Origin: Deltaproteobacteria bacterium
GTDB taxonomy: Bacteria > Desulfobacterota > B13-G15 > RBG-16-54-18
Direction: 5' to 3'
Assembly: GCA_030672385.1 (NCBI GenBank)
Contig: DAOVGN010000057.1
Span: 1-37,507, forward strand
Length of the DNA: 37,507 nucleotides
Below the pieces are notes generated by a model that was given only the letters and a program-made list of their open reading frames with translations, had not been told where the DNA came from and searched no databases. Position numbers and translations under genes: made by a program. Positions 6,619-37,507 of the stretch are shown here, in pieces (the first letter of the stretch is position 1; each line of letters starts with the position of its first letter).

Positions 6619-6646
6619 AACTCTCTCCTTTTTTTGAATTTTTTGT

Positions 6647-7759: not shown

Positions 7760-7785
7760 TTTTCACCTCCTTGAGTTATGATAAT

Positions 7786-8538
7786 TTAGGTCATTCCATA
7801 GCCACCATCTACGCAAAGGACCTGCCCTGTGATGTAACGGGCGTCGTCTGATGCGAAAAAGACAAAGGATGGGGCTATATCCTCTCCCTCGGCGAAGCGG
7901 TTCAGGAGGATGCGTCGCATGTAGATCTCTGCAAGTTTTGGATCAGTCCTGATTTTTTCCGTCATCTCGGTGGCTACGATCCCAAGTGAGATGCAATTGA
8001 CATTAATTTCATACCTAGCGAGTTCCCTTGCAGCAGATTTGGTCAAGGTTATTATCCCCCCCTTGGCGGCACTGTAGTTGATTTGACCGACCGTACCGAC
8101 AAGACCTGCGACGGAGGTAACATTGATGATGGAGCCCCTTTTTTGCTCCATCATATACTTACTTGCGTGTTTAATACAGAGCCACGGTCCCTTGAGGTGG
8201 ATACCCAGCACAGCTTCCCACTGTTCCTCTGTCATCTTGTGGAGCATGGACGGCCGGGTGAACCCAGCATTGTTGACCAGAATGTCAATCCTACCAAACT
8301 GATCAACCGCGGCCTGAATAACTGCCTCTGCCCCCTTGTCGGTTGCCACATCAGCTTGAACAGCTACCCCCTTGCGACCAATCTTCTGTATTGCTTCCAC
8401 CACCTCATTGGCTGTCTTGGGATTGGAAACATAGTTGACGACGACATCAGCCCCTTCTTTGGCGTAGGTCAGGGATATGGCTCTCCCAACCCCTCTTCCA
8501 CCCCCGGTAACTACAGCCGCCTTACCCTCCAGCTTCAT
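7786..8538 (-). CDS. Short-chain dehydrogenase/reductase (FabG-like)
   Basis: A 250-residue classical SDR. The cofactor motif TGGGRGVG lies at residues 11-18. NNAG, the catalytic serine in NVTSVAG, and YSAAK (active-site Tyr and Lys) are all present, and the C-terminus is the typical GQVLCVDGGYGMT. I start at the ATG at 8538 because GGGAGGTG lies eight bases before it; a TTG at 8562 is unlikely. It closely resembles 3-oxoacyl-ACP/3-hydroxyacyl-CoA reductases. In this operon, between the biotinyl carrier and had, a plausible role is oxidation of a 3-hydroxyacyl-CoA such as 3-hydroxypimelyl-CoA, the product of BamA. That is inferred from position; the substrate cannot be read from the sequence. 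Confidence 0.85.
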   Translation of the reverse strand: MKLEGKAAVVTGGGRGVGRAISLTYAKEGADVVVNYVSNPKTANEVVEAIQKIGRKGVAVQADVATDKGAEAVIQAAVDQFGRIDILVNNAGFTRPSMLHKMTEEQWEAVLGIHLKGPWLCIKHASKYMMEQKRGSIINVTSVAGLVGTVGQINYSAAKGGIITLTKSAARELARYEINVNCISLGIVATEMTEKIRTDPKLAEIYMRRILLNRFAEGEDIAPSFVFFASDDARYITGQVLCVDGGYGMT

Positions 8539-8572
8539 CCTTCTTTCACCTCCCTTCCCCAAACCATAAAGC

Positions 8573-8782
8573 CTATTCGATGATCATGAGAACGGAATCA
8601 GACGTTACCTCATCGCCCGCTTTTACATTGATCTCCTTGACAGTACCTGATACCGGAGCAACAATCGGCATTTCCATCTTCATGGCTTCCAACGTGGCCA
8701 CCTGATCGTTCTCTCTGACCTGTTCTCCTGCTTGGACCAATACCTTAACTACTTTTCCAACCATAGGTACAGTTACTTCCAT
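8573..8782 (-). CDS. Stand-alone biotinyl (biotin carboxyl carrier) domain protein
   Basis: A 69-residue protein that is only a biotinyl domain. EAMKMEMPI places the biotinylated lysine at residue 35, flanked by the two Val/Gly-rich half-domains of the flattened barrel (PMVGKVVKVLVQAGEQV and VKEINVKAGDEV). It lacks the proline/alanine linker and membrane parts seen in the carrier subunits of decarboxylase pumps. The ATG is two bases after the acyl-CoA dehydrogenase stop, implying translational coupling. Such a carrier needs a biotin ligase and a carboxylase or decarboxylase partner, none of which is in the window. Partners could be a glutaconyl-CoA decarboxylase or an acyl-CoA carboxylase handling the dicarboxyl-CoA products of the pathway (inference). 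Confidence 0.88.
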   Translation of the reverse strand: MEVTVPMVGKVVKVLVQAGEQVRENDQVATLEAMKMEMPIVAPVSGTVKEINVKAGDEVTSDSVLMIIE

Positions 8783-8784
8783 TT

Positions 8785-9945
8785 TTAATCCCTCTTTTCT
8801 ATGAAGTTTCTTGCAATAATGACCTTTTGGATGTTTGAGGTACCCTCAACACTCTGATAGGACTTGGCATCTCTGTAGTACCGCTCTATCGGATACTCGG
8901 TACCGTAACCATACGATGCATAGACCTTCATCGCCTCATTGGCAGCCATAACTGCGGCTTCTGCACAGTAGTATTTTGCGGTGGAAATAGCAAGTGTTGG
9001 TCTCCCTCCTGCTTGCTCTAGGTTGTCCATGGTCCAGGCAGCCTTCAAGACTAGGAGTTTTGCCGCCTCATGCTCGCACCACATCCTGGCCAACTGATCC
9101 TGAATCATCTGGAACTGGACAATCGGCTGACCGAACTGAGTCCTCTCGTTGGCGTACTGCTTGGCCAGTTCAAAGCACTTCTCAGCCACCCCAGCGGCAC
9201 GTGCTGCGCAGGAGAGGCGCGTTCTGTCAAGCATGTACATGGCGATCTTAAAACCATCCCCAGGCTTGCCCACTATGCTGTCCTTTGGAATTTTTACATC
9301 CTCAAAGATGATTTCGCCGGTGGGTGAACTGAAAAGGCCTAGCTTTTCAGTAATCGCCCGCTGTTCGATTCCAGGTGTCTTCATGTCAACCATAAAAGCG
9401 GATATCCCCCTGTGTTTCTTCTCACGATCGGTCATGGCAAAGATGATCCCAATAGTTGACACTGGTACACCGGAGATCCACATCTTGCTTCCGTTCAGGA
9501 CATAACCGTCATCTACTTCTTTGGCCGTGGTCCTCATAGAGGCCACATCCGACCCGGTGTCGGCCTCAGTCAGTGCGAAGCAACCGTATTCATCTGCGCT
9601 GATAAGAGGCGGAATATATTTTTCACGTTGTTCCTCATTCCCAAAGGCCAACAGGACACCCTGAACGGCGTTCATCTGGAGGTTAAAGGTGACTCCGTAG
9701 GAAGGGCTCTCCTTGGCAACCTCAATGGTCGCAAGGGTAGCGGCGAGATACCCCATTTCAGTACCGCCGTATTTCTCCGGTGCAATACAACCAAAAAAGC
9801 CGAGTTCTGCCATTTTTTTAACAATTTTCTCGTTGTAAACGTGATTCTTCTCGTCTTCCTCTACCGTAGGAGCGATTTCATTCTGGGCAAAGTCTTTGGC
9901 CATATCTTGTAGGATTCGTTGTTCCTCTGTTAAACCAAGTTCCAT
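8785..9945 (-). CDS. Acyl-CoA dehydrogenase, first gene of the benzoyl-CoA operon
   Basis: A 386-residue FAD-dependent acyl-CoA dehydrogenase with all family landmarks: N-terminal helical domain, FALTEADTGSDVASM, the WISGVP segment, RTQFGQPIVQFQMIQ, and the C-terminal VEGTSNIQKVIIAR, in which Glu367 is the canonical catalytic base. The ATG follows AAGGAGGAA. Candidate substrates in this context are alicyclic acyl-CoAs (cyclohexane- or cyclohexenecarboxyl-CoA), pimeloyl-CoA or glutaryl-CoA. Glutaryl-CoA dehydrogenases carry an arginine after a tyrosine (YRS) that binds the distal carboxylate; here the corresponding segment reads SYGVTF. A glutaryl substrate is therefore less likely, though alignment is needed. 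Electrons would pass to an electron-transferring flavoprotein encoded elsewhere. Confidence 0.88.
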   Translation of the reverse strand: MELGLTEEQRILQDMAKDFAQNEIAPTVEEDEKNHVYNEKIVKKMAELGFFGCIAPEKYGGTEMGYLAATLATIEVAKESPSYGVTFNLQMNAVQGVLLAFGNEEQREKYIPPLISADEYGCFALTEADTGSDVASMRTTAKEVDDGYVLNGSKMWISGVPVSTIGIIFAMTDREKKHRGISAFMVDMKTPGIEQRAITEKLGLFSSPTGEIIFEDVKIPKDSIVGKPGDGFKIAMYMLDRTRLSCAARAAGVAEKCFELAKQYANERTQFGQPIVQFQMIQDQLARMWCEHEAAKLLVLKAAWTMDNLEQAGGRPTLAISTAKYYCAEAAVMAANEAMKVYASYGYGTEYPIERYYRDAKSYQSVEGTSNIQKVIIARNFIEKRD

Positions 9946-22522: not shown

Positions 22523-25189
22523 CTAAGAAGTCGTGATCCTCCTCGGCTGTACGATCCGGGGGGCTATAAAGATCAAGAGTTCCTTTTTGTCCCTATCCTT
22601 CTTCTTCTTTTTAAATAGCCAGCCCAATAACGGGATTTTGTAAAAGACGGGGACCCCATGCACACTACCGGACTTTTCATAGGTATAGATCCCACCGATC
22701 ACCACTACCTCTCCATCCTTGACCAGGACCTCTGTCTGGGCCTCTTTTTTGTCGATGGCTGGTACACCCAGTACCGTATTGCTCCAGTCAGGGGTATCTT
22801 TAGAGATCTTGATCTCCATCCTTATGTGCCCATCAGCAGTCACATGGGGGGTGACAGTCAGTTTCAGGTTGGCCTCTATGAACTCGGTGGAGATCGTACC
22901 CTCCTCTGTATACTTCGGGTAGGGTATACGCAGACCCTGTTCTATATATGCCTCAGTATGATCCAGGGTAGTAACCCTGGGACTTGAGATCACCTGTCCG
23001 TCCCCTGTCTCCTCCAGGGCTGAAATCTTTACCTGCAGATATTTGGTATTTTTTATATTCGCAATTATCATTTCTATGGCACCACCATGGCCGCTACTTG
23101 CCCCAGCAGGTAGGTCCACCACAAAGTCTCCACTGCTGGCCCCCTTAGTCTCTACATTGACATTTTCTTTGGGAAAATCCTCCGTGATTTTCCCACCCCA
23201 CGATATTCCCAGCTCCCTGGCGAAGTTAGTGCTGGCCTCTATGACCTTCGCCTGGATCAAGATCTGAGGGGTCTGGGCATCCAGTTTTTGCACCAGGTCC
23301 TTCGCCTTTTCCACATTGGTTAGAATGTCCTTTACGATAAGGGTATTGGTGCGCTCATCCACGGTTACGGTCCCCCTGCCGCTCAGGAGGTCTTTGACCT
23401 TAGGGGCGAGTTCCGTAGCCGTGCTGTAGTTCACCGGTATCAATTCGGTGACAAGGGGTGCCAGCTCTTCGCTGGCCTTGGTAGCCGCTGCCCTCGCCAG
23501 TTTATCTTTTTGCAACCTCTCCAGGGGGGCTATTCGGATGACGTTGCCTATCATCTCCATCCCCAAGTTGTTCGCCTGCAGGATGACATCTAGTGCCTGA
23601 TCCCAAGGGACATCTACCAATCTGATGGTGACCTTTCCCTTTACATCCTCGGTGGTGATGATATTCAGGTTGCTCACCTCTGCAAAGAGCCGCAGTATGT
23701 TATCGATGTCTGCGTCCTTGAAATCCAGGGTGACCTTCTTCCCTGTATAGACCTTTTGTGCCACCCTCTCAGGGAGGGTGGCAACCGGCACAACCTTCGG
23801 CACCGGCGCTGGAGGGGCAACCTCCTCCTTTTTCACCTCTGCAGGTTTCTCCACCACTTTTACCTCAGGGGGCTTTTTGACGGTGACCACCTCAACAGGT
23901 TTGGGTTTTTCTACCCTAAATTCTTCAGGCCTCGCAAAATCGAGATAGATCCTGCTGTCCTCCTGCTGGACATCAAAGGCCACCATCTTGCACAACTTCA
24001 CAAGGATTCGGGCACTCTTTTGGTCATCAAGCACAATATTACTGGGGGTGATCATCACCACAGGGCTGGCGAATTCATGGGTATCTAAAGGTCTGGTAAG
24101 CTTTGAGGGGACAATCATTCCCTTTACCTCTACCAGCACCGTATCCTCTGGTCCCTTCACCACATCATAGGGGGCCTTCGCCGAGGTGCAGATAATAATC
24201 CTCGATTTATCCTTCAGCTGCTTAAAGTCTATCCCGGTGATCTCTCCCGTCACAGGTACTGCAGGAGGAACCTTTTCCTCCTTGACAACCTCCTTTTGGG
24301 GCGCAGGAACAGGAGGAACAGGGACCTCTGCCTTCACCTCCTTCCCCAACACGACCCTCAACTCATCACCGACGCGATCGATCCTGTGGGCAGGGAGTGC
24401 CTTGGTTGGAATATCGAGGACCACTCTGACCTTCTTGGGGTGATCTCCTAAACGCACCTTTTTCAGAAAAGGGGAATCGACCAAGACCGCCCTCGAAGGA
24501 AATTTTCTCTTTATCTTCCACAGATCAATTACCAAACGTGTCGGCTTCTGCAGAGCAAAGGTATTGTAATCTCCCACCCTTCCGTCTGTCTTCAAACTCA
24601 AGATCACTTTATCTTTTTGGGACTTATCTGCATAGACGCCGACTAAACTCTGAGCAGGAGCCATTTCTTTTGGGACAACTTTCTCCTTTACTGGTGGAGG
24701 GGCCTCTTCAATGATCTCTATTTCCTTCTTTTTCTCCTCTTCCCTGGCAATAAGAGGGCCCCGTTTACCAACGTCTATGTAGAGGAGGGGGCCTTCCTTT
24801 TGGACTTGATATCTGACTAGTTTATTCAGACATATACAGATCTTGGCATTCCCTTCCTGTTGAGTGGCAACGATCTCCTTTATTACATCATCACCAACCG
24901 TTATGGGGGTGGAGACTCCTTCAGCCAACTCCGTTTGTGGGATATCGATCACCAGCTTCAACGGTTGGGGGATGAGCTTAAAGAACGTATACACCAGAGG
25001 GGATTCCCCCTCGATGATCACTCTCTTGCCCTCATCCCTGTCTACTACCTCTATATTCTTAATGAAATTTTGGGGGACGGCTTTCGGCAAGGGTTGTACC
25101 TTTTCACGGGGGGCACAACCCATTACCAATAAGATAATGGAGATCACCACTACTCCACAGCACCCCTTCTTCTTATTAAGGCTCTTCAT
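22523..25189 (-). CDS. pilQ: Type IV pilus secretin PilQ with three AMIN-like domains and a lipobox
   Basis: An 888-residue outer-membrane secretin, longer than many PilQ proteins because of its N-terminal part. The signal ends LLVMGC, a lipobox-like site with Cys25. Three AMIN-like domains follow at roughly residues 45-130, 180-285 and 315-420, separated by Pro/Lys/Val-rich linkers. An STN/N0 domain (VTLDFKDADIDNILRLFAEV), N1-type ring domain, and the secretin channel with VPVFYKIPLLGWLFKKKKK and LLIFIAPRIV complete it. It forms the gated pore through which the pilus passes. AMIN domains bind peptidoglycan. The ATG overlaps the pilP stop (ATGA). Confidence 0.95.
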   Translation of the reverse strand: MKSLNKKKGCCGVVVISIILLVMGCAPREKVQPLPKAVPQNFIKNIEVVDRDEGKRVIIEGESPLVYTFFKLIPQPLKLVIDIPQTELAEGVSTPITVGDDVIKEIVATQQEGNAKICICLNKLVRYQVQKEGPLLYIDVGKRGPLIAREEEKKKEIEIIEEAPPPVKEKVVPKEMAPAQSLVGVYADKSQKDKVILSLKTDGRVGDYNTFALQKPTRLVIDLWKIKRKFPSRAVLVDSPFLKKVRLGDHPKKVRVVLDIPTKALPAHRIDRVGDELRVVLGKEVKAEVPVPPVPAPQKEVVKEEKVPPAVPVTGEITGIDFKQLKDKSRIIICTSAKAPYDVVKGPEDTVLVEVKGMIVPSKLTRPLDTHEFASPVVMITPSNIVLDDQKSARILVKLCKMVAFDVQQEDSRIYLDFARPEEFRVEKPKPVEVVTVKKPPEVKVVEKPAEVKKEEVAPPAPVPKVVPVATLPERVAQKVYTGKKVTLDFKDADIDNILRLFAEVSNLNIITTEDVKGKVTIRLVDVPWDQALDVILQANNLGMEMIGNVIRIAPLERLQKDKLARAAATKASEELAPLVTELIPVNYSTATELAPKVKDLLSGRGTVTVDERTNTLIVKDILTNVEKAKDLVQKLDAQTPQILIQAKVIEASTNFARELGISWGGKITEDFPKENVNVETKGASSGDFVVDLPAGASSGHGGAIEMIIANIKNTKYLQVKISALEETGDGQVISSPRVTTLDHTEAYIEQGLRIPYPKYTEEGTISTEFIEANLKLTVTPHVTADGHIRMEIKISKDTPDWSNTVLGVPAIDKKEAQTEVLVKDGEVVVIGGIYTYEKSGSVHGVPVFYKIPLLGWLFKKKKKDRDKKELLIFIAPRIVQPRRITTS

Positions 25190-25785
25190 AGTTTTTCCCC
25201 CTCCCCAGGGACATGTAATCTCAAAAGGATCTCCTTTGACCTGATATTGCCCAAATAATCTTTATACCGCTCCTCTATGATTACACTGTCTTTGAGGATT
25301 TTTTTCACTTTGCCGAAGTTTCTCCCGATATATGTCCCCTTCTCGACGATATAACCTTTCCCCTCAGAATCCTCCACCATCGCCCTTCCCTCTGTTTTTC
25401 CCACCAGGATGGCCACCAGTTTCAGTTGACTGAGGTCATATTTCTGCAGGGGGGTGAGGGATATCTGTTCCCCGGAGGGTTTTACAGGGGTTTGCATGGC
25501 GATGAATGGCTGAAAGGGGTCCCTCTTGCCTGTGGGATCGTAGACATAATGGCGCTTTTCCTCCTTTTGCTGCAAGGGCGATGTAGAGGTCGCCGGTGCC
25601 GGTGTGGGGACACTTGGTGAGGGTTTTCGGGATTTGGGTGCCAGCATAACCTTTTCCCGACCCTCTTCTTTTTTGCTATCGGTGCGGGGTGACCTGTCGC
25701 ATCCCCCCAGGATAAGGGCGATACCGATAATCAAGATGAGGGCGCAAGGCCCTTTTGACCTTCTTTCTCTAACCATTTTCACCAC
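25186..25785 (-). CDS. pilP: Type IV pilus inner-membrane lipoprotein PilP
   Basis: A 199-residue lipoprotein. The basic start and hydrophobic run LILIIGIALILGGC give a clear lipobox with Cys29. A proline-rich linker with PSPSVPTPAPATSTSP leads to the PilP homology domain, recognisable by YDPTGKRDPFQPF and GKGYIVEKGTYIGRNFGKV. It connects the PilMNO alignment complex with the periplasmic domains of the secretin PilQ. The start is uncertain: GTG at 25785 or 25782, or ATG at 25776. It follows pilO by two bases and overlaps pilQ. Confidence 0.92.
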   Translation of the reverse strand: MVKMVRERRSKGPCALILIIGIALILGGCDRSPRTDSKKEEGREKVMLAPKSRKPSPSVPTPAPATSTSPLQQKEEKRHYVYDPTGKRDPFQPFIAMQTPVKPSGEQISLTPLQKYDLSQLKLVAILVGKTEGRAMVEDSEGKGYIVEKGTYIGRNFGKVKKILKDSVIIEERYKDYLGNIRSKEILLRLHVPGEGEKL

Positions 25786-25787
25786 GC

Positions 25788-26381
25788 CTATTTCTTCTTG
25801 GCTCCCTCAACCTTTTCCAAATATCTATAAGTTGTGGCAACGCATGAGGTACTCAACAGGATCTCCCCCTTTTTCTTTGCGGGGGCCTTTACGAGAGAGA
25901 ACTGCGCGATGTTTACTATGCGCGAAAGGGTGCCCACATGATAAAAGAACATCCCTATCTTGTGATACGACCCCACAAACTTTAATTCCACGGGGACCTT
26001 AGCATAAAATTGCCCAGGCTGCTCCCCCTGAGGTTTAAACAAAAGTAATTCCAAGCCAGCCTCTTTGCCCAGATTGGATATGTTCTTCAACAGGTTGGGA
26101 ATCTCCCTTTTGTCCGGCAACTTGCTTAAGGCCTCCCTTAGATCCTCGCTCATCCTCCCCAACTCCTCCTTAAACTTGTCAAAGTCCTTGGCGATGTTGC
26201 TCTTTATATTTTTTTCTCTAATAAGGTCATTCAACTTCGATTCCTTGGCTTCAATCCGCCTTGTCTGCGGAAGGTGAAAGGCGTACACGTAGGTCCCTAA
26301 GATGGCCGCTGAGATCAGCAAGAGGATACCTACTTTTTGCGGTGTAGGTAACTTGATGATGGTGTCCAGAGAGACTGCCAT
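25788..26381 (-). CDS. pilO: Type IV pilus assembly protein PilO
   Basis: A 197-residue bitopic membrane protein. A single N-terminal helix (VGILLLISAAILGTYVYAF) is followed by a coiled coil (about residues 45-90) and a ferredoxin-like periplasmic domain. FYAKVPVELKFVGSYHKIGMFFYHVGTLSRIVNI is the conserved PilO signature region, here spanning residues of both core strands and helix. It pairs with PilN in the inner-membrane alignment complex. The ATG follows AAGGAGGATCCC, a strong ribosome binding site. Confidence 0.93.
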   Translation of the reverse strand: MAVSLDTIIKLPTPQKVGILLLISAAILGTYVYAFHLPQTRRIEAKESKLNDLIREKNIKSNIAKDFDKFKEELGRMSEDLREALSKLPDKREIPNLLKNISNLGKEAGLELLLFKPQGEQPGQFYAKVPVELKFVGSYHKIGMFFYHVGTLSRIVNIAQFSLVKAPAKKKGEILLSTSCVATTYRYLEKVEGAKKK

Positions 26382-26391
26382 GGGATCCTCC

Positions 26392-26931
26392 TTAAAGGGA
26401 AGTTGAACAGAGCAAACTAAACTTTTTTAGCCTGAGACCTCCCCTCACAAATTGTTCTGTCACCTCCAGTTCTACCCCGCCGAAATATCTGGAGCGCTCT
26501 AATAGGGTCATGAAATTAGCGATAGTCTCATTGTCCAACGCTACACCTACAATCTTCAGCTTCTTTCCATTCTTATCCAAGCTCTCGATCCACATCTTCT
26601 CCGGTATACTCTGGCTCAGTTCGTCTAGTACACATACCGCACTTAACCTTCCCGCTTCCAAATTATTGATGATAGTTAACTTTTTCTGAAGCTTGGCCTT
26701 TTTCTCCTTTAACTTGTCTATCTCACCCACCACCTCATTTATCTTAGTTATCTCTTCCTTGACCAAGTGCAATTGGGCATCAACACGTTTCTCGCGCTGC
26801 TTTGTAGACCAGTTAAGATAAGCGACAGCCACAAAGGTCAAAAAGAGGACGAGGATTAAGATGGAGGTCTGAAATCGAAGGGTTTCCTTTTTCCTCGCCT
26901 CCCGTACAGGTAGTAAGTTTATCTCTATCAT
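26392..26931 (-). CDS. pilN: Type IV pilus assembly protein PilN
   Basis: A 179-residue bitopic protein. The first residues, MIEINLLPVREA, are the cytoplasmic INLLP motif that binds PilM. A membrane helix (SILILVLFLTFVAVAYLNW), a coiled coil and a small periplasmic ferredoxin-like domain follow. It starts three bases after the pilM stop and precedes pilO by ten bases. Length and order are standard. Confidence 0.93.
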   Translation of the reverse strand: MIEINLLPVREARKKETLRFQTSILILVLFLTFVAVAYLNWSTKQREKRVDAQLHLVKEEITKINEVVGEIDKLKEKKAKLQKKLTIINNLEAGRLSAVCVLDELSQSIPEKMWIESLDKNGKKLKIVGVALDNETIANFMTLLERSRYFGGVELEVTEQFVRGGLRLKKFSLLCSTSL

Positions 26932-26934
26932 TTC

Positions 26935-27993
26935 TTATATCTTCCTTAAGGCCAACCCTACACCTACGGCCATTAAGGGGCCGATATCCTTTAAATACTC
27001 AGGATCAAAGGCTCGCAGGTTGACCGCTATGTTTGCAAATGGATTGATGATCTCTACTGGCAAATTAAGCCTCTCTCCCACAATCTGTTTTAATCGGGGG
27101 ACCTTGGAGCAGCCACCACCAAGGTAGATGCGAGCTATCCTCTCTTCGGGGAAAGTTGCGGTAAAGAAATCCAAAGACTTGGCTATCTCCAAGGCAATGG
27201 TGGAAGAGGTCTTGTCAAGCACCCTATCGATGGTATGCGGCGTTCCTTTATCCGATACACCACCTAATTTCAAGCCTTCAGCCTCCTCAAAATTTACGCT
27301 TAGCTCCTTTTGGATCTCTTCTGTGTAAAGATTCCCCCCGGTGGAGATATCCCTTGTGAAGAGGGACCTCCCCCCCTTAACGATATTGAGGTTCATTATG
27401 CTGGCTCCAACGTCACATAAGACCACCAAATCTCCTATCTCCAAGGGATAATTTAGTTCGTACATATTCTCCAGGGCAAAAGAATCTATGTCAATAATCG
27501 TGGGACTCAACCCTGCTTCCTTGACGACGGCGACATAATCTTCGATAAAATCTTTCTTGGCGGCAACGAGAAGGACTTCCATATGTTCCCCCATCTCCTT
27601 TTCCGGGGTTGATAATATTTGAAAGTCAATGTTCACATCATTTATGTCAAAGGGGATATACCGCTCTGCTTCCACTAGGACATTCTCCTCTAGCTCCGAT
27701 TCCGTCATCTTGGTGAGGGTGATCTTCTTCACGATTACCGAATGGCCGGACACAGAGACGGCCACCTCCCGCTTTTGAATCTTATAATTAGAGGCCAATT
27801 CCCTTATCGCCTCCACCACTGTTGTGGAATCCATCAAGCTCCCATCCACGATGGTCTCTGGAGGCAGGGGGTTTAGGCCTATGTTGTTGAGTTGGTAGCC
27901 TTTCCCTGTATCCTTGATGTTCACAAATTTGATGGCGCTGGTACCTATGTCCAGCCCTAGTACCTGTTTCCCTTTACTTGTAAAGAGTCCCAT
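26935..27993 (-). CDS. pilM: Type IV pilus assembly ATPase-like protein PilM
   Basis: A 352-residue actin-like (ASKHA) cytoplasmic protein. VLGLDIGTSAIKFVNI is the first phosphate-binding loop, VVLCDVGASIMNLNIV the second, and IYLGGGCSKVPRLKQIV the adenosine region. It binds the PilN N-terminus and forms the cytoplasmic ring of the alignment complex. It is the first pil gene, 91 bases after the end of the sigma-54 activator gene. Confidence 0.94.
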   Translation of the reverse strand: MGLFTSKGKQVLGLDIGTSAIKFVNIKDTGKGYQLNNIGLNPLPPETIVDGSLMDSTTVVEAIRELASNYKIQKREVAVSVSGHSVIVKKITLTKMTESELEENVLVEAERYIPFDINDVNIDFQILSTPEKEMGEHMEVLLVAAKKDFIEDYVAVVKEAGLSPTIIDIDSFALENMYELNYPLEIGDLVVLCDVGASIMNLNIVKGGRSLFTRDISTGGNLYTEEIQKELSVNFEEAEGLKLGGVSDKGTPHTIDRVLDKTSSTIALEIAKSLDFFTATFPEERIARIYLGGGCSKVPRLKQIVGERLNLPVEIINPFANIAVNLRAFDPEYLKDIGPLMAVGVGLALRKI

Positions 27994-28084: not shown

Positions 28085-29470
28085 TCAAGGATTTAATCTA
28101 TAGCGGTTCAACTTCTCCCTCAAGGTTGAACGGGAGATCCCTAAAACCCTGGCCGTCTCCGATTTGTTCCCCCTTTTCTCTTGCAGCACCTTTAGGATGT
28201 ATCTGCGTTCCACTGCGGCCAGAGGGCTGAACCCATCCACATTATCCACCCATTTCTCTCCTAGGGAGGAGGCCCTTTCCACTTTATTCCTCCTCAATTC
28301 AAGGGGGAGGTCTTCAGGGGCAATTAGATCTCCTCTAGCCAAGATCATAGCCCTTTCAATGACATTTTTCAGTTCTCGCACATTTCCCGGCCAAGAATAG
28401 GCCAGTAGGAGATCGAGGGCCTCATCGGTAACACTTCTTATCTCCTTTCCTAATTCCCTTCCTATCTTCTTGTTGAAATACTGTGTGAAAGTGGGTATAT
28501 CCTCCTTCCTATCGCGTAGAGGAGGTAAATCTATCACCATTACCTTGATGCGGTAATAAAGATCTTTGCGAAATTCCCCTGTCTCCACCAATTGAGCCAG
28601 CTCCTTATTGGTAGAGGTAATTACCCTTACATCCATTTTAATGTCTCTTTCCCCCCCTACTCTCCTGAGAAGATAAGTTTCTAAAAATCTCAGTAATTTC
28701 GGCTGAAGGGAGGGTTTCATCTCTGAGATCTCATCCAAAAAGACCGTCCCCCCTTGAGCTAATTCTATGAGGCCCGGCCTGTTCTCCTTGGCATCGGTAA
28801 AGGCACCTTTCTCATAACCGAAGAGCTCGGATTCCAGCAAAGCCTCAGGGATAGCGCTACAATTTATCTTAATGATGGGCTTTTGTCTTCGTCGGCTTTG
28901 ATAGTGGATGGCGTTAGCCACCAATTCCTTTCCTGTACCACTTTCACCCTGAATTAAGACAGGAGTTCGTGGGGTCTGACTTATCAAGGAGATAAGTTCC
29001 CTCACCACGTCCATCTGAGGGCTTACCCCATAGATCTCTTCCTCCTCTTCTTTATCCCTGTGTTTATAACGCAATCTGAGGAGCTCCCCCCTTAGTTCCT
29101 TGGTCTCCAAGGCCTTCTTGACCGCCAACCGCAATTCGTCTATCTCAAATGGCTTATTTATATAATCATAGGCTCCGGCCTTCATGGCTGCAACCACCGT
29201 TTGCACATCGGCATAGGCAGTCATCATGATAACAAGGGGATCGCTATCTATTTCCCTAATCTCCTTCAGTATGTCAAAACCGTCCATATCCGGGAGCTTT
29301 ATATCCAACAGGATGAGATCGAAGACCATCTTCCGGAGGCAATAAAGGGCATCTTCACCCTTCTGGGCAGAGGCCACTTCACAAGACATCTTTTCCAAGA
29401 CCTCTGATAGGGTGCGACACATCACCTCGTCATCATCAACAATGAGTATATTAGGCTTGACTTCCATCAT
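28085..29470 (-). CDS. Sigma-54-dependent response regulator (NtrC/PilR-like)
   Basis: A 461-residue three-domain activator. The receiver has VDDDE and the phospho-acceptor Asp56 in LLDIKLPD. The AAA+ domain carries Walker A GESGTGKE, GAFTDA (the sigma-54-contact loop) and a Walker B region TVFLDEISEM. A Fis-type helix-turn-helix is at the end (NKSETARVLGISRSTLREKL). It activates sigma-54 promoters when phosphorylated. It starts inside the histidine kinase gene (20-base overlap), so the two form a pair. Its position next to pilM resembles PilS/PilR control of pilin genes, but target promoters are not visible in the window. Confidence 0.94.
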   Translation of the reverse strand: MMEVKPNILIVDDDEVMCRTLSEVLEKMSCEVASAQKGEDALYCLRKMVFDLILLDIKLPDMDGFDILKEIREIDSDPLVIMMTAYADVQTVVAAMKAGAYDYINKPFEIDELRLAVKKALETKELRGELLRLRYKHRDKEEEEEIYGVSPQMDVVRELISLISQTPRTPVLIQGESGTGKELVANAIHYQSRRRQKPIIKINCSAIPEALLESELFGYEKGAFTDAKENRPGLIELAQGGTVFLDEISEMKPSLQPKLLRFLETYLLRRVGGERDIKMDVRVITSTNKELAQLVETGEFRKDLYYRIKVMVIDLPPLRDRKEDIPTFTQYFNKKIGRELGKEIRSVTDEALDLLLAYSWPGNVRELKNVIERAMILARGDLIAPEDLPLELRRNKVERASSLGEKWVDNVDGFSPLAAVERRYILKVLQEKRGNKSETARVLGISRSTLREKLNRYRLNP

Positions 29471-30527
29471 CAATCTTTACCGGGAGGTCTAGAATGAACG
29501 TAGAACCATTCCCCTGGGAACTCTCCACTTCAATCTTCCCTCCATGTCCCTCTACTATCTTATGGGTTATGGAGAGGCCTAATCCTAATCCCTTACTCTT
29601 AGTGGTAAAGAAGGGATCAAAGATTTTGGGGAGATGTTCGGGCTTTATCCCCACACCAGTATCCTTAACCTTGACCTGAATCCATCCTCTTGGTAGATTC
29701 CTTCTTTTTATCTCCACTGTCAATTTCCCTCCAGCTGACATAGACTGGAGGGCGTTGAGGAAAAGATTCATAAATACCTGCTGCATCTGATTAAAATCCA
29801 GGGGGATGGGCGGCAAACCATTGCCATATATCTCTTTGATTTTAATCCCTCTATTTTCTGCCTCCTTCGCCAAAAGACCCTTTACCTCTTTAATAAGATC
29901 CTGGATCTGACAAGGAGCAAGGTTAAGGTGTTTGGGCTTGGCAAAGGAAAAAAAGGTGCGCAACAGATCGTTGAGCCTGTCGATTTCTTTAATGATCCTA
30001 TCGAGATACTCCTTCCTAGGGTCATCGTTACCCAACTCTTCATTTAAGGCTTGGGCGGTGGTCTTGATTCCAGCCAGAGGGTTTCTTATCTCGTGGGCCA
30101 AGGTGGAGGAGAACTCCCCCAAATATGCCAATCGATCCATCTTCACTATCTCTCCATGCATCTTATAGACATGGGTCATATCCTGCAAACTTGCCACCTT
30201 TCCCCTCTCTCTCCCCAGATAGTCGTGATATGGAAAGATCGATAGCTTTAAGGGGGTGTTTTCCTTTCCCTTTTGGAAAAATATTGTTCCATCTCCCCCT
30301 TTCCCTCCCAGACTTTCATTTCCTTGTGACAAAAGGCTTAGAAGACGTTTGCCCAAGAGGAGATCTCCTTTTTTCCCCAGGATCTCCTCTGATGCCTTAT
30401 TGGCAAAGATGATTTTTTCCCCCCTGTCCAACAGAATCACCCCTGTCTCAATTCCATCTAAGATCCCTTTTACAAAGGGGCCAGGTCTTTCTACACTCCT
30501 GGATTTCTCGTTACTTTTAACAACCAA
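29451..30527 (-). CDS. Soluble NtrB-like sensor histidine kinase
   Basis: A 358-residue kinase without membrane segments. A PAS domain (about residues 20-120, GVILLDRGEKIIFANKASEEI) is followed by the dimerisation domain with phospho-accepting His145 in HEIRNPL. The ATPase domain has an N-box (MNLFLNALQSMS), G1 VKDTGVGIKP and G2 GLGLGLSI. The start is a TTG with GGAGGG nine bases before it; no nearby ATG fits. It sits 18 bases after the CheW-like gene and overlaps the response regulator, its evident partner. Being cytoplasmic, it must sense an internal signal or a neighbour. Confidence 0.93.
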   Translation of the reverse strand: MVVKSNEKSRSVERPGPFVKGILDGIETGVILLDRGEKIIFANKASEEILGKKGDLLLGKRLLSLLSQGNESLGGKGGDGTIFFQKGKENTPLKLSIFPYHDYLGRERGKVASLQDMTHVYKMHGEIVKMDRLAYLGEFSSTLAHEIRNPLAGIKTTAQALNEELGNDDPRKEYLDRIIKEIDRLNDLLRTFFSFAKPKHLNLAPCQIQDLIKEVKGLLAKEAENRGIKIKEIYGNGLPPIPLDFNQMQQVFMNLFLNALQSMSAGGKLTVEIKRRNLPRGWIQVKVKDTGVGIKPEHLPKIFDPFFTTKSKGLGLGLSITHKIVEGHGGKIEVESSQGNGSTFILDLPVKIDDGSQA

Positions 30528-30545: not shown

Positions 30546-31823
30546 TTACAATGATATTTGCTCCACATCGAGAATCCATACCCCCCCCTTCCCTGATACC
30601 CCTTTCCCTAAAATGTAGGGTTTCCCCTCTATGGGGTGGTATTCGATCTCCTCTCGGGATATGGCTTGGTCTACGATAACTGCTGCCGTGCGGTCCTCTC
30701 TTCCCCTTACAATGAGTATAAGGGGTTTTTCTTCTGTCGATGGTCTAAGTTTGAACACCTGAAAGAGATTCAAAAGGGGTATTTCCATTTCCTTTAACTT
30801 AACTCTTCCGCTCTTGATGAAAAAATCAGCCACCCATTTTTTTACCAGGAAGCTCTTCAATATCTGGTTGTCGGGAAGACCAAAGACAACACCCGAGGCT
30901 CCGAAGAGTGAGACGGCCATCGTTGGTACCTTTGCGGGTTCCTGTATAGCGATATCTGATGGTGAATACGATCCCCTCTCTAACCTCCCATTTAAATCTG
31001 CTATCTCTTCTCCCCCCCCTTCCAGTTCCCCTCTAAATTCTTCCCCAGACCCAAATTGCCTCTGCAGCTCTGTCTTATAGGAGGTTATTGCCTGGTGGAT
31101 ATTCCCCAATCTCTTATTCTCCTCCTTGACCGCTTTTTCCAATTCCTCGATTCTGTCTATTAATCTCTTTATTCCTTCAAAAGATGTCTTTTTTTCCTCA
31201 GGAGGTTTCTGGGTTACTATCTCTTCCCCTCCCATCTCTCGTATCTCTACTTTCTTCTCCTTTGGAGCCTTTTCCTCTATTCCCAGTCTCTGAAACTCCG
31301 CCTTTAACTCCTTCACCAAGGCAACTTTATCGATCTCAAAAGAAAACCGCTCATCAGTCATCCCTTTAGCGACCTTCCAAGACTTTTGCAAGAACTTTAA
31401 GGCAGTGGGGTTAAGTTTGCTTTCATCTAAGAGGAGTTGATAAAGTACCTTTTGTATCAGAATTATAACAATCTCTAATTCATCAACCCCATGGGGAAGC
31501 CTTCTTAGATCTTGGAGGAGGGTTAAGGCCCTGTTTATGTGTTTGGAGCTGATATCCCATTCCAAGGTCAACAATTGTGCCTCTACTTCCTCCAGCTTTT
31601 CCTGAAGCGCACGGGAGGCCAACCCCCTCTCTTGTGTCGGAGGTGCTGTTGGGGAAGGATAATCTCTGTTCGCTGCCCTCACCTCTTTGTAAGGGGCATG
31701 AACTCCTTTAGGCTGGGTGACCGGATTTGCCTGACCTTCTTTTTCTACAAATAGAGTATCTACAGCGGCCTCTATATCTCTTTCTAGATCCGATAAGTCC
31801 CAACTATTATCTTTATCATTCAT
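30546..31823 (-). CDS. Coiled-coil protein with C-terminal CheW-like domain
   Basis: A 425-residue cytoplasmic protein. Residues 1-70 are acidic and disordered-looking. About 75-190 are helical, with LEWDISSKHINRALTLLQDL. About 210-265 form a coiled coil (IKRLIDRIEELEKAVKEENK). The last ~120 residues, with VSLFGASGVVFGLPDNQILK, MEIPLLNLFQVFKL and AAVIVDQAISREEI, read as a CheW-like beta-barrel adaptor: hydrophobic entry strand, IPLxxLxxxF core, and a VDxxxxxEE end. The ATG overlaps the mglA stop (TAATG). CheW domains dock kinases and receptors, so this may connect MglA with a signalling array. I know no named family with this architecture. Confidence 0.7.
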   Translation of the reverse strand: MNDKDNSWDLSDLERDIEAAVDTLFVEKEGQANPVTQPKGVHAPYKEVRAANRDYPSPTAPPTQERGLASRALQEKLEEVEAQLLTLEWDISSKHINRALTLLQDLRRLPHGVDELEIVIILIQKVLYQLLLDESKLNPTALKFLQKSWKVAKGMTDERFSFEIDKVALVKELKAEFQRLGIEEKAPKEKKVEIREMGGEEIVTQKPPEEKKTSFEGIKRLIDRIEELEKAVKEENKRLGNIHQAITSYKTELQRQFGSGEEFRGELEGGGEEIADLNGRLERGSYSPSDIAIQEPAKVPTMAVSLFGASGVVFGLPDNQILKSFLVKKWVADFFIKSGRVKLKEMEIPLLNLFQVFKLRPSTEEKPLILIVRGREDRTAAVIVDQAISREEIEYHPIEGKPYILGKGVSGKGGVWILDVEQISL

Positions 31824-32443
31824 TAAAATTGCCTATCTGCTAGTGTTTTTTTGCTCACATCCTTAACCACCAATTTGCTTATCTCCCTCAGGGTTTCAAA
31901 AACCCCTTGCCCCTTGAGGGCACTGGCAGGGAAAGAAGGTACCTTTAGATAAGAGTTGAGATCCCTCTCCATTTCTGCGATGGTTAGCACAGGTATATTA
32001 CTCCCCTCCAAGTCCCTTTTATTGTATTGCATGATCAAGGGTAGATTGGTGACGTCTAATCCCCTCTCTTTGAGATTATAGGCCAAATTTTCCAAGCTCT
32101 CAATGTTCTTTTCCCTCTGCACCCGCATAGAATCAGCCACAAATACCATTCCATCAACCCCTCTTAAGACCAGTTTTCTCGTAGCGTCGTAATGCACCTG
32201 TCCTGGTACAGTGTAAAGTTGCACTCTGATCGCAAAATCCCTGATTCTACCTAAATTAAGGGACAAAAAATCAAAAAATAGTGTTCTATCACCCTTTGTG
32301 TCTATAGAGACCAATTGCCCCCTTATATCATTATTAGTGCTGTCATAGACAAACCTCAAATTAGTGGTCTTTCCCCCGAGACCAGGACCATAATATACGA
32401 CTTTGCAGTGGATCTCTCCTGAACTAAAATTGATGAAGGCCAT
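31823..32443 (-). CDS. mglA: MglA-like small Ras GTPase
   Basis: A 206-residue GTPase of the MglA family, near the usual length (about 195). The P-loop is GPGLGGKT (residues 20-27), the switch region contains VSIDTKGDRTLFFDFL, the G3-like segment is TVPGQVHYDATRKLVLRGVDG, and NKRD gives base specificity. The TVPG in place of the Ras DTAG is typical of MglA. In Myxococcus, MglA-GTP marks the leading pole and controls type IV pili and gliding. It follows mglB, its GTPase-activating partner, by 13 bases. Confidence 0.95.
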   Translation of the reverse strand: MAFINFSSGEIHCKVVYYGPGLGGKTTNLRFVYDSTNNDIRGQLVSIDTKGDRTLFFDFLSLNLGRIRDFAIRVQLYTVPGQVHYDATRKLVLRGVDGMVFVADSMRVQREKNIESLENLAYNLKERGLDVTNLPLIMQYNKRDLEGSNIPVLTIAEMERDLNSYLKVPSFPASALKGQGVFETLREISKLVVKDVSKKTLADRQF

Positions 32444-32993: not shown

Positions 32994-34016
32994 TCAAGGG
33001 CCGAAAATTTCCGGCATGCTCGATTTCAAGCCAAGATCTTCTATCCTCCCGCTATACTTTTCAATGGTAGATCGCAGTGTAAAGTTTATCCTTGTGTGCA
33101 ATTCATCCTTGGTGATCTTCAAGGGCGCCTTTTCCAAAGTCAGGTCTATACAATCCTTTATCCCTCGGAGAAACTCCTCCAAGGGCACCTTCCCCCAAAA
33201 TTTTATCTCTCCATTCTCATACTCAAATTCGGCTACAAATGGATCGAGGAACGGATAGTCCTCGGATTTTTCCACCTGAGCTCTTTTGAAACCCTCGCGG
33301 AAGGATCCTTTTTGTGTGGTCAGGCCATCCACCAAGCCCTCAATAATATCCATAACCTCTTGTATCACCTCTATGGCCCCTTGCAGGTCTCTGGTTTGAG
33401 CTATCTCCGTCCGTTCAGCCCCCCTCTCCAACAGGCCAGCGCGATATACATTAAAGCTTGCACCAATCTTTTGGGCGTCATCTATTACCTTGGACAATAT
33501 CTCCTTGCCATACATCGTTTTATTTCCTGCACCAGACATGGCAACCTCTAAAATCTCTCCTTCTTGTAAAAAAACAACCCCCTTGCCTTTGTCGCCAGTT
33601 AAAACTATATCGATGTATCCTGAATGTTTTTCCTTGCTCAGCTTTTCTACTAATTTATCCAAGCTGGTGAACTCCGTGGACAAATTTTTGTATATTGCTT
33701 CTTCCGTAGATGTGCTGGCCAAAATGGTCACCATCTCTGGGGCCAATCTATGGACATTGATCCTTCCATCCTTTTGCTTGGACATGAGGATGATATTCTC
33801 TACTGCATCTTCCCCTACCCTTCTCGTACCTTGCGTCTCTTCGATAGCATTCACTATCTCTCCAGCCTCCAAAAACAGGACCCCTTCATGATCCCAAGAG
33901 GAGAGTTGCACGTAACCGTCGAAGTCATCCTCTTTTAACGATTGGAGAAAACTGTTGAGATCGACAAAAGAGGTCCTCAGATTGTCATAAACCGCTTCTC
34001 CTTTTGGTAAGATCAT
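32994..34016 (-). CDS. Double-PATAN (DUF4388-like) protein
   Basis: A 340-residue cytoplasmic protein with two similar N-terminal units at about residues 10-105 and 115-205. Both end in the PATAN pattern: YVQLSSWDHEGVLFLEAGEI in the first and YIDIVLTGDKGKGVVFLQEG in the second. The remaining ~130 residues are helical with a negatively charged FEYENGEIKFWG segment and no recognised domain. PATAN domains are found in bacterial motility and two-component regulators and often bind partner proteins. The ATG follows AGGAGG. It lies between the REC-PATAN-roadblock regulator and mglB, suggesting a role in the same switch. Confidence 0.65.
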   Translation of the reverse strand: MILPKGEAVYDNLRTSFVDLNSFLQSLKEDDFDGYVQLSSWDHEGVLFLEAGEIVNAIEETQGTRRVGEDAVENIILMSKQKDGRINVHRLAPEMVTILASTSTEEAIYKNLSTEFTSLDKLVEKLSKEKHSGYIDIVLTGDKGKGVVFLQEGEILEVAMSGAGNKTMYGKEILSKVIDDAQKIGASFNVYRAGLLERGAERTEIAQTRDLQGAIEVIQEVMDIIEGLVDGLTTQKGSFREGFKRAQVEKSEDYPFLDPFVAEFEYENGEIKFWGKVPLEEFLRGIKDCIDLTLEKAPLKITKDELHTRINFTLRSTIEKYSGRIEDLGLKSSMPEIFGP

Positions 34017-34047: not shown

Positions 34048-35172
34048 TTAAACTTGGAACTTGGTTGGTTTCTGCTCTAAGATATTTCTGGCCCTAGAAT
34101 AAAACTCATCAGCGGTGGTATTATTCAACAGTGTGACCATCAGAAAGAGGTAATTGTACCTCATGATGATAGATTGATTATTTTTGTGCCCGAGATTTAT
34201 CCTCAATAGTTGATGGTTCCCCACGGATTTTTCCAACCTGGCAGCCATGGTGGACAATAGCGAGGGGATTAAGGCGTCCTTTTCGTTAAAATCTTGATCA
34301 TTGATGGTCAATACCCTTCCTTTTTCGTTGACCCACATCCCCTTTTCATAGCCGTTAATACTGGCCAACATCTTCAACAATCGTTCCAGCAATTCTTTCG
34401 TTTCGATCTTTTTGTCGAGATCCTCAAATGCCTTCTCTACCTCCTGCAGTAAGACCGAGCTATCTCTGTCTTCTGTGACAGTGCTTTCATCCCTTCTTCT
34501 CATACCCTCCAACAGGAGGTGTTCCCAACGGTCCGTTATAGTCTCTTTGGGGATTGGAACTCCCATCTGAGAGATGAACCTCCCATCTTTCCAGCTCAGC
34601 ATGGTGTACAGGGCTTCTTCTCCCTCCAGGTCCCCTATTTTCGCATGAACGATCTCGCCGTTCCTGAAATAGATCATACCCTCTTCATCACCCCTGGAGA
34701 CGGCGATTGACATGCTAAACCTGCCCAAACATCCCATCTGGATGACATCAACGAGTTGCAGGTCGAGGACTTGACCTACAAAACCACCCCTCTCCTCCTC
34801 AAGGGCCTTAAGGATAATGTTCCTGATATCAGATATCTCAAAAGGTTTCTCGATGTAATGGTATGAACCTCTCTTGGTAGCCTCTTCTTGGACTTCCGGT
34901 GATCCGTAGGCCGTCATGATGATTACCTTGGTCCACGGATACTCTTCCCTTATCTTTGACAGTAAATCGAGTCCATTGATGTCTGGCATCCTTATGTCTG
35001 TTACCACCACATCGATACGAGATTTTTGTAGGGTCTGAAGGGCCTCTGTTCCTGTATTGGTGCTGATGAGCTCATATTTATCTCTATCTTTGGCCAAGGT
35101 TTTGGTCATACTCCAAGTCAGGGTCTCTTCATCGTCCACTACGAGGACCTTCCTTGTCTCTTTTTCTGCCAT
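34048..35172 (-). CDS. Response regulator with PATAN and roadblock-like domains
   Basis: A 374-residue regulator. The receiver (residues 5-125) has VVDDEE and the phospho-acceptor Asp59 in TDIRMPD. A classic PATAN/DUF4388 domain follows at about 130-225, from GGFVGQVLDLQLVDVIQMG through GMIYFRNGEIVHAKIGDLEG to LSWKDGRF. The C-terminal 110 residues look like a roadblock/LC7 domain (GYEKGMWVNEKGRVLTINDQ, then the FLMVTLLNNTT strand). I start at the ATG at 35172, with GAGGT upstream, instead of a TTG at 35244. No DNA-binding domain exists, so output must be by protein contact. A roadblock next to mglB and mglA suggests it competes or joins in control of MglA. Confidence 0.75.
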   Translation of the reverse strand: MAEKETRKVLVVDDEETLTWSMTKTLAKDRDKYELISTNTGTEALQTLQKSRIDVVVTDIRMPDINGLDLLSKIREEYPWTKVIIMTAYGSPEVQEEATKRGSYHYIEKPFEISDIRNIILKALEEERGGFVGQVLDLQLVDVIQMGCLGRFSMSIAVSRGDEEGMIYFRNGEIVHAKIGDLEGEEALYTMLSWKDGRFISQMGVPIPKETITDRWEHLLLEGMRRRDESTVTEDRDSSVLLQEVEKAFEDLDKKIETKELLERLLKMLASINGYEKGMWVNEKGRVLTINDQDFNEKDALIPSLLSTMAARLEKSVGNHQLLRINLGHKNNQSIIMRYNYLFLMVTLLNNTTADEFYSRARNILEQKPTKFQV

Positions 35173-35318
35173 TTCTTGTACCTCAGGAATCAAGGTTTTG
35201 CTTTTTCCTTCATTGAAAGGAAAAGAGTGTGTGACAGCAGCCAACGACTAATGAGTTTGCCAAATATTAAATCTCCCATTTTCCTTGTGCTAACCTTTGG
35301 ATAACTCGCCTTAAAAGG

Positions 35319-36188
35319 TCACCATCCCTTGACCTTTTTCTGATACTGCTCCAGGTAATTGGCCGGCACTGGAACAAAACGCCTTATATTGTTGGTCCTC
35401 AAGACTGGGTGGCCAACGGGAATATTCAACAGGGCTTCCTGAACCATCTTTTTTGCCTTTGCTGGCAATTTTTTATTTGCGCTGAAGACCCAGTTGGGGG
35501 TTCCCTCGGTATGGGCGATGATCTGTATATCCTTCGTTTCTCCTGGGGATAGTAAGCCCTTGCTCTCTATCCTCCCCAAGGTCTCTCCAGAAATAAAGCC
35601 TGCGTCAGCCTTTTTTTGTATCACATCGAAGACGACGCTCTCCGCTTTGTTCTCCTTCGCTTCAACAATAGTGAAGTCGACATATATAACCAGTCCTCTT
35701 TCTGCCAAGAAGATTCTTTGGGCGATGAATCCCCCCGCACTGTGCAGTGAGACGACGCTTATTTTCTTTCCCTTCAGGTCCTCTATTTTTTTTATTCCGC
35801 TGTCCTTCCTGGTGATAATTATCCCTCTGGACTCAACCCCCCCCTCTTTCCCTTTCTCGGTCAACGTAAGGGGGGAACTGGCCTCCCATACCTCAATAAA
35901 GACATAGGGATTTTGATATGAGAAGTCCACCTCCCCTCTTTTTACCATTTCAATATGTTGCTCAAAGGAACGTGGGATGACGAGCTCGAACCGAACACCC
36001 AAGGTATCCTCTAAATAAGTCATCAAGGGGTTTAGCCTCTGCCACATCTCAATGCGTAGATATTCAGGGACGACGGCAATCTTATAAGTTTCTTCTGCCA
36101 GCAGGGGCTGTTGAAAAACGACATGGGAAAATATCGAAAATATGAAAATTACAAGAACAATAAGGAGCCTTTTCCTCTCCTTAGTCAC
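35319..36188 (-). CDS. PhnD-like periplasmic phosphate/phosphonate-type binding protein
   Basis: A 289-residue exported protein. The signal peptide (LLIVLVIFIFSIFSHVVF) is followed by a type 2 periplasmic binding fold of the PhnD family: YKIAVVPEYLRIEMWQRL, VDFSYQNPYVFIEVWE, the IEDLKGKKISVVSLHSAGG hinge and ADAGFISGETLG. The start is a GTG with GGGAG located in the end of the preceding gene, five bases away. No ABC permease or ATPase is adjacent. Instead it directly follows a Cache-HAMP receptor gene, so it probably feeds a sensor and not a transporter (inference). The ligand is unknown. Confidence 0.85.
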   Translation of the reverse strand: MTKERKRLLIVLVIFIFSIFSHVVFQQPLLAEETYKIAVVPEYLRIEMWQRLNPLMTYLEDTLGVRFELVIPRSFEQHIEMVKRGEVDFSYQNPYVFIEVWEASSPLTLTEKGKEGGVESRGIIITRKDSGIKKIEDLKGKKISVVSLHSAGGFIAQRIFLAERGLVIYVDFTIVEAKENKAESVVFDVIQKKADAGFISGETLGRIESKGLLSPGETKDIQIIAHTEGTPNWVFSANKKLPAKAKKMVQEALLNIPVGHPVLRTNNIRRFVPVPANYLEQYQKKVKGW

Positions 36189-36193
36189 TGAAC

Positions 36194-37063
36194 TTATCTC
36201 CCTCTCAACCTCTCGATGGCGGCTTTGAGGCTTATCTGCATCCTCCGTAATGCCTCAGCCAACACCCTAATTTCGTCCTTCGTCTTCACCTCTATACTCG
36301 CCCCCAGATCCCCAACGCTTATCCGATCGGCTACCTTGGCCAAATGTAGAAGGGGCTTCGTAATCCGCCGTGAGAAAGAGATCGCCGCGATTAACGCCAC
36401 AAGCAGCGCAACGACGCCCACGATACCGATAGCTACCATTTGTCTTTGAGCTCCCTTCTTAAATGTTTCACTTAACCTCACGACAGGAGAACGAAATTCA
36501 TCTATATAAGTTGTGGCCGCAATGCCGTATCCGCTTCCCTCTACAGGGACACATACCATAAACTTGTCCCTTATCTTGCCATCAGGATCCTCCCATTTAT
36601 AATAACCCTTCGTAAAAGTACCCTCCAGATGGGGCTCTAGTATCCGCCAAAACTCAGGAAGCTTGGTGGCCAATTTGTGCAAATCCAGGTCCTCCACCTT
36701 GGGATTGATGTGAAAGCGGTTTATCCCTGTCTTCAGCTCATGAAGAGCCGTATAACCTGTCTGCCCTACCGGCTGTACTGCCAATTCCCTAAACTCGGGG
36801 TCCTCCCGCAGATCCTCCAAGGTGTAGTCGAGATGGGCCTCTAGATAAGCTGACACTTCCTCGGCCGCATCCTTGCCCACATCTTCTATGATCTGCTCTC
36901 CTACCTTTCCTAATACCTCATCTCCCTTTTGGGTGATCACCTCACTCATATCTTTTATTTCAGACAAAGAGACATACCCGACTATCCCCAAGGGGATAAC
37001 GGTGGCAATAATGGCCAAAATGGTCAATTTACCTAAGATCCCGAATCCGCCCATCTCTCTCAT
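36194..37063 (-). CDS. Cache-like/HAMP membrane receptor lacking an output domain
   Basis: A 289-residue inner-membrane protein. A first helix at residues 10-31 (LTILAIIATVIPLGIVGYV), a periplasmic domain at about 32-205 of the Cache type (FMVCVPVEGSGYGIAATTYID is its characteristic strand pair), a second helix at about 210-231, then a HAMP linker (RRITKPLLHLAKVADRISVG, VKTKDEIRVLAEALRRM). The protein ends 20 residues after the HAMP, with a natural stop and a ribosome binding site AAAAGGGGG before the start, so it is not an obvious frameshift. Without kinase or methyl-accepting part, it must signal by dimerising with another protein. A near-identical copy precedes it. Confidence 0.8.
   Translation of the reverse strand: MREMGGFGILGKLTILAIIATVIPLGIVGYVSLSEIKDMSEVITQKGDEVLGKVGEQIIEDVGKDAAEEVSAYLEAHLDYTLEDLREDPEFRELAVQPVGQTGYTALHELKTGINRFHINPKVEDLDLHKLATKLPEFWRILEPHLEGTFTKGYYKWEDPDGKIRDKFMVCVPVEGSGYGIAATTYIDEFRSPVVRLSETFKKGAQRQMVAIGIVGVVALLVALIAAISFSRRITKPLLHLAKVADRISVGDLGASIEVKTKDEIRVLAEALRRMQISLKAAIERLRGR
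36498..36614. repeat. 117-bp exact repeat, copy 1 (in the first complete receptor gene)
   Basis: Identical base for base to 37391-37507, at a constant offset of 893. It encodes the end of the Cache-like domain. A second shared block, 36209-36376 and 37102-37269, has about 13 differences in 168 bases. The intervening transmembrane part is strongly diverged yet equal in length. Confidence 0.9.
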
Positions 37064-37083
37064 TCCCCCTTTTCTCTGATCTT

Positions 37084-37507
37084 TTAAGGTCTCCTCCTGA
37101 GCCTCTCGATGGCGGCTTTGAGGCTTGTCTGCATCCTCCGTACGGCCTCAGCCAACACTCCAATCTCATCCTTCGTCTTCACCTCTATACTTGCCCCCAG
37201 GTCCCCAACGCTTATCCGATCGGCCACCTTGGCTAGATGCAGAAGGGGCTTCGTAATCCGCCGTGAGAAAAATAAGCTGAGTCCCACAGCGAAAGGAACT
37301 GTGAAGATCAAGGTGATAAAAAATATCTTTACGGCCTTAATTTTAACAGAGTCAATATATCTGTAAATCCTGTCCCGGGGCAGGAGAAACTCATCTATAT
37401 AAGTTGTGGCCGCAATGCCGTATCCGCTTCCCTCTACAGGGACACATACCATAAACTTGTCCCTTATCTTGCCATCAGGATCCTCCCATTTATAATAACC
37501 CTTCGTA
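37084..37507 (-). CDS. Tandem paralogue of the Cache/HAMP receptor (cut by window edge)
   Basis: The last 140 residues of a paralogue of the next gene, open to the right edge of the window. It encodes the end of the Cache-like domain, a second transmembrane helix (IFFITLIFTVPFAVGLSLF) and a HAMP linker, then stops after LKAAIERLRRRP, like the downstream copy. The periplasmic end is identical to that of the downstream copy at the DNA level, whereas the helix region is unrelated in sequence. It lies 20 bases upstream of that copy, and its start is beyond the window. Confidence 0.8.
   Translation of the reverse strand, partial: TKGYYKWEDPDGKIRDKFMVCVPVEGSGYGIAATTYIDEFLLPRDRIYRYIDSVKIKAVKIFFITLIFTVPFAVGLSLFFSRRITKPLLHLAKVADRISVGDLGASIEVKTKDEIGVLAEAVRRMQTSLKAAIERLRRRP
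37391..37507. repeat. 117-bp exact repeat, copy 2 (continues past window edge)
   Basis: Same sequence as 36498-36614, with no mismatch up to the last base of the window, so the identical block is probably longer than seen here. Confidence 0.9.

Follow-up and report, generated by a model that had tools for sequence, protein, structure and literature searches.

How a membrane receptor can signal when its cytosolic part ends with the HAMP domain is the question raised by two tandem genes at the right edge of the window, a stretch of 37,507 nt that makes up the whole of contig C63 in a 104-contig draft genome of 93% completeness. They head a minus-strand gene run in which all intergenic gaps, from the receptors to the pilus genes, are below 125 nt, and which reads as follows from the right contig edge:

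37084..37506, minus strand: receptor copy 1, cut on its 5' side where the contig stops; the 140 aa seen cover the last part of the sensor domain, TM2, HAMP and the C-terminal tail (from ORF and Pfam)
36194..37063, minus strand: receptor copy 2, 289 aa (TM1 at about 4-36, Af1503-like/Cache-like ectodomain, TM2 at about 204-235, HAMP 230-280, tail end RMQISLKAAIERLRGR)
35319..36188, minus strand: periplasmic solute-binding protein of the PhnD type, separated from copy 2 by 5 nt
34048..35244, minus strand: response regulator receiver with DUF4388 (PATAN)
32994..34016, minus strand: DUF4388 (PATAN) protein, 340 aa
32457..32870, minus strand: MglB homologue (Roadblock/LC7)
31823..32443, minus strand: MglA homologue (Ras-like GTPase)
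30546..31823, minus strand: CheW-domain protein
29451..30527, minus strand: PAS histidine kinase
28085..29473, minus strand: NtrC-type response regulator
22523..27993, minus strand: five ORFs, pilM-pilN-pilO-pilP-pilQ (type IV pilus), named by sequence reading without a family search

The locus thus contains an MglA-type GTPase gene with an adjacent Roadblock MglB gene. Both products match solved mutual-gliding proteins (E 2e-67 for the MglA and 3e-28 for the MglB homologue), and a module of this kind would be expected to show GTPase activity and polar localisation. Elsewhere in the window, a run at 5479-9945 resembles, by reading, anaerobic aromatic (cyclohexene-carboxyl-CoA) degradation and is unrelated to the receptors.

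The sequence-only reading had described the two genes as Cache-HAMP receptors lacking any kinase or methyl-accepting output. That both copies end straight after HAMP is borne out by the agreement of ORF ends and HAMP positions (residues 230-280 of 289 in copy 2 and 79-130 of 140 in the partial copy 1), and Pfam finds neither HisKA/HATPase_c nor MCPsignal in either ORF. Hydropathy gives two TM helices for copy 2 and TM2 alone for copy 1, since the latter is cut. The label holds for HAMP, while the Cache part yielded only sub-threshold Pfam matches for this protein; yet a family profile restricted to the ectodomain matches that of the archaeal receptor Af1503 (E 7e-14). A single-sequence structure prediction reached a pLDDT of 42, too low to be of use. 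The ectodomain would serve for ligand sensing, perhaps with the adjacent PhnD-type binding protein as a possible co-receptor.

A homolog search through 395 genomes of the phylum gave matches in 51, and the proteins were split by the number of residues after HAMP into HAMP-terminal ones and those with long C-terminal regions (fused). In a FastTree phylogeny of 58 sequences, midpoint-rooted without an outgroup, 37 HAMP-terminal proteins group apart from 21 with output domains. The HAMP-terminal clade carries a class-specific C-terminus, RMQxS(x4)IxRL, with 0-7 residues following this tail: R285, M286, Q287 and I294 are invariant in all 37 members, S289 is conserved in 97%, and R296 and L297 in 91%, whereas most of these positions are variable in the fused set. 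Because the C-terminus is conserved, the missing output domain is not a result of decay, and a truncated MCP or kinase gene was rejected as an explanation in view of the 37-member clade, its conserved end and a genome with no MCP found. The sequence-only reading did not recognise that receptors ending in HAMP form a long-standing, conserved class linked to PATAN/MglAB operons. As a separate observation, some HAMP-terminal receptors (L079, L125, L139 and L165) have an N-terminal cytosolic zinc ribbon ahead of TM1, which was identified as Zn_ribbon_4 in L079 and by reading in the others.

The family profile matches the engineered Af1503 structure 4cq4 over positions 45-297 (E 3e-28), and this profile evidence places the two tandem receptors in a class of HAMP-terminal proteins that share homology with the archaeal Af1503. 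Af1503-like receptors have been described as an archaeal family with nothing but HAMP in the cytosol and, in many cases, a coupling to STAC (PMC4834066). HAMP is likewise the only cytosolic part here. The short STAC partner gene, which is frequent but not constant in that family, is not next to copy 2, the next gene, 5 nt on, being PhnD; the members found here are bacterial, and the range of hosts says nothing about mechanism. Another type of HAMP-terminal receptor was seen at L036, L037 and L041, where the tail ERLRFSLKAAMERL resembles that of Af1503 and the receptor is preceded by small proteins that, by eye, resemble Roadblock; their assignment as Roadblock proteins was not upheld, as the one scanned (at L037) gave no Pfam match.

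The gene neighbourhood separates the two classes. At 31 of 39 HAMP-terminal loci, and at none of the 20 fused-homolog loci, DUF4388 is encoded no more than 1.5 kb away on the same strand (Fisher p 1e-9, a value that overstates the evidence because the loci are related), and by family the association holds for 15/17 against 0/5 (p 8e-4). Both sets of counts were tallied by hand, with L165, a 717-aa ORF that is over-read at its N-terminus and ends after HAMP, moved from the fused to the HAMP-terminal class; otherwise the fused count would be 1/21. MglA or MglB lies within 6 kb at 16 HAMP-terminal loci and at no fused one. In an independent Pfam scan, DUF4388 was present in 29 of 104 proteins neighbouring HAMP-terminal receptors and was not among the 25 families listed for 61 control neighbours. 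Among 296 genomes centred on a Nitrospirae genome, a search returned two matches, both HAMP-terminal with a different ectodomain; in these two Nitrospirota genomes the order is DUF4388, DUF4388N, DUF4388, receptor, MglB, MglA, with the receptor immediately before MglB-MglA. A different ectodomain with the same neighbours indicates that sensors are exchanged while HAMP, the tail and the gene context are retained. Five receptors of family f1 (L076-L080) and L125 have neither DUF4388 nor MglA nearby, so that some members must act in another way or rely on genes located elsewhere.

Many of the loci border on genes for solute-binding proteins, PhnD and DctP among them, which suggests that sensing may be assisted by binding proteins. 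In one case the gene directly after the receptor (L075:7476-7985) encodes a protein of the class III cytochrome c type, perhaps a redox-sensing partner. DUF2226, known as an archaeal family, is matched by five neighbour proteins of HAMP-terminal receptors and may connect these with the Af1503-like loci of archaea. The occurrence of PATAN proteins near MglA/MglB has already been reported (PMC4316618), and it is the association of the receptors with PATAN/MglAB operons that is new; among open-licence papers we found no report linking HAMP-only receptors to PATAN/MglAB, which is a weak sign of novelty.

The two copies also differ from each other in a mosaic manner, with the blocks distributed as follows:

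37391..37507, minus strand: sensor block of copy 1, same sequence as 36498-36614, reaching the contig end
36498..36614, minus strand: sensor block of copy 2, same sequence as 37391-37507
37269..37390, minus strand: TM2 stretch of copy 1, unrelated to that of copy 2 (31% identity)
36376..36497, minus strand: TM2 stretch of copy 2, orthologous to the relative G006
37090..37268, minus strand: HAMP and tail of copy 1, with 90.5% identity to those of copy 2
36197..36375, minus strand: HAMP and tail of copy 2

The mismatch-free block at a constant 893-nt offset, reported in the sequence-only reading, was recovered in full (117/117, with 0 synonymous differences in its 38 codons), 117 nt being a lower bound since the contig ends inside the repeat and copy 1 is incomplete. 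The unrelated middle part was recovered as well (31.1% identity over 37269-37390); the HAMP block is highly similar, at a measured 90.5% rather than about 92%. The same reading had ascribed this pattern to recent gene conversion of both the sensing and the HAMP parts. A comparison with G006, which belongs to another genus of the same family, separates the two. In the sensor block 11/114 nt differ between the window genome and G006 and none between the window copies; by a simple calculation, zero differences in 114 sites at the between-genus rate has a probability of about 1e-5, and recent gene conversion of the sensor block is thus supported by the sequence comparison. The HAMP part is about as alike between genera (84.4%) as between copies (86.5%), so that its conversion would be older or is unproven. 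TM2 of copy 2 has 79% nucleotide identity to its G006 counterpart and 32% to that of copy 1, which makes copy 2 old and places the homogenisation of the sensor block later.

In G006 the same operon lies on contig C91, which ends within the same sensor block; contig C50 also ends there, and the two ends overlap exactly by 114 nt. On C50 a DUF4388 gene precedes the receptor. These breaks fit a tandem pair split by the assembler at its own repeat; a single gene with unjoined contigs, the middle piece lying outside the bin, is a possible alternative. The operon is present in G007 too, and the contig end again falls in the receptor gene. The receptor copy on C50 of G006 (L071:8584-8600) contains a 5-bp TTTGG tandem duplication that causes a frameshift about 200 nt from the contig end and may represent a pseudogene, slippage or an assembly error.

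With respect to signal output, classical array signalling is unlikely because no MCP domain was found in the genome (93% complete) and its single CheW domain is that of the window operon (30546-31823). PilB/PilT-type ATPases are present. We lean, by a small measure, towards the reading that the receptors pass their signal non-covalently to a PATAN/CheW-like/MglAB switch controlling type IV pili. Each receptor consists of one periplasmic sensor domain, two TM helices, and HAMP with the conserved helical tail as the whole cytosolic part. A periplasmic ligand, perhaps sensed through the adjacent PhnD-type binding protein, would alter the HAMP/tail bundle, which would touch a protein of the same operon non-covalently, the likeliest candidates being the CheW-domain protein and a PATAN (DUF4388) protein; this contact would set the MglA/MglB GTPase switch and hence the pili. 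Gene conversion would keep the same sensor in both copies while the TM helices differ. More tentatively, and at somewhat less than even chances, we suppose a phosphorylation-free path from receptor to GTPase in which HAMP and the RMQxS tail dock directly on PATAN, the CheW-like adaptor or MglB, thereby switching MglA. Against the proposed signalling to the PATAN/CheW-like/MglAB switch, neighbourhood is no proof of contact, the histidine kinase and response regulators of the operon could carry the signal, and an MCP or CheA may possibly have been missed in a genome that is 93% complete.

The receptors could instead be a separate sensor subunit for the PAS histidine kinase/NtrC pair and control pilus-gene transcription, MglAB and PATAN being co-transcribed but separate. 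The kinase and NtrC do sit in the same gene run, and the PATAN-receiver proteins are response regulators that could be phosphorylated; we nevertheless regard this as unlikely, as the recurring neighbour is DUF4388 and not a kinase (HATPase_c in 2 of the 104 neighbour proteins). Slightly less probable still is a role in regulating transport, the function put forward for Af1503 of archaea together with STAC and transporters, the pairing here being with solute-binding proteins. It agrees with the frequency of such proteins beside the loci and with the transport genes noted near Af1503-like receptors in the CASP11 paper (PMC4834066), but the PhnD gene of the window has no transporter gene beside it, some fused homologs share solute-binding neighbours (NMT1), and the link to DUF4388 is stronger.

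Decaying or truncated MCP or kinase genes, or an artefact of assembly at the contig end, would be very improbable explanations. The contig does end inside a repeat and the G006 copy does carry a frame-shifting duplication, but the conserved C-terminus of the 37-member clade and the lack of a detected MCP speak against decay, and none of the close relatives has an output domain, so the kinase or MCP fusion that the sequence-only reading had envisaged among them did not appear. Its other concern, a pure assembly artefact, was rejected, since sequences that diverge so strongly in TM and HAMP come from two real copies, even if the assembly across the repeat is still uncertain.

Each of the elements discussed has counterparts in known systems. 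Af1503 of Archaeoglobus fulgidus, from which the first HAMP structure came, shares the homologous ectodomain, HAMP as the sole cytosolic part and a similar C-terminal helix, RLRRSLKVAMESL, but it stands beside STAC and a metal transporter, whereas the bacterial receptors have the RMQxS tail and stand beside PATAN/MglAB. The polarity module of Myxococcus xanthus has a homologous GTPase and GAP (MglA/MglB) with pilus genes close by, and its input is the Frz chemosensory system instead of HAMP-only receptors. In actinobacterial conservons (CvnA-D), a membrane sensor is likewise encoded with Roadblock and MglA-type GTPase proteins, but that sensor is histidine-kinase-like, while the receptors described here have no kinase module. 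Methyl-accepting chemotaxis proteins resemble them in the Cache-like sensor, TM and HAMP, and a CheW domain occurs in the operon; the receptors differ in lacking the signalling domain, and their genome in lacking a detected MCP.

The HAMP domain of Af1503 is the prototype for HAMP signal relay, and its family has been described in the literature as being without a recognisable effector. A bacterial branch that consistently adjoins PATAN and MglA/MglB offers a concrete, testable partner and suggests an input route to the MglA polarity switch that would need no chemoreceptor arrays. If true, the phosphorylation-free path would amount to a module general among bacteria, in which ectodomains can be exchanged, and would account for the partner of Af1503-type HAMP-terminal receptors.
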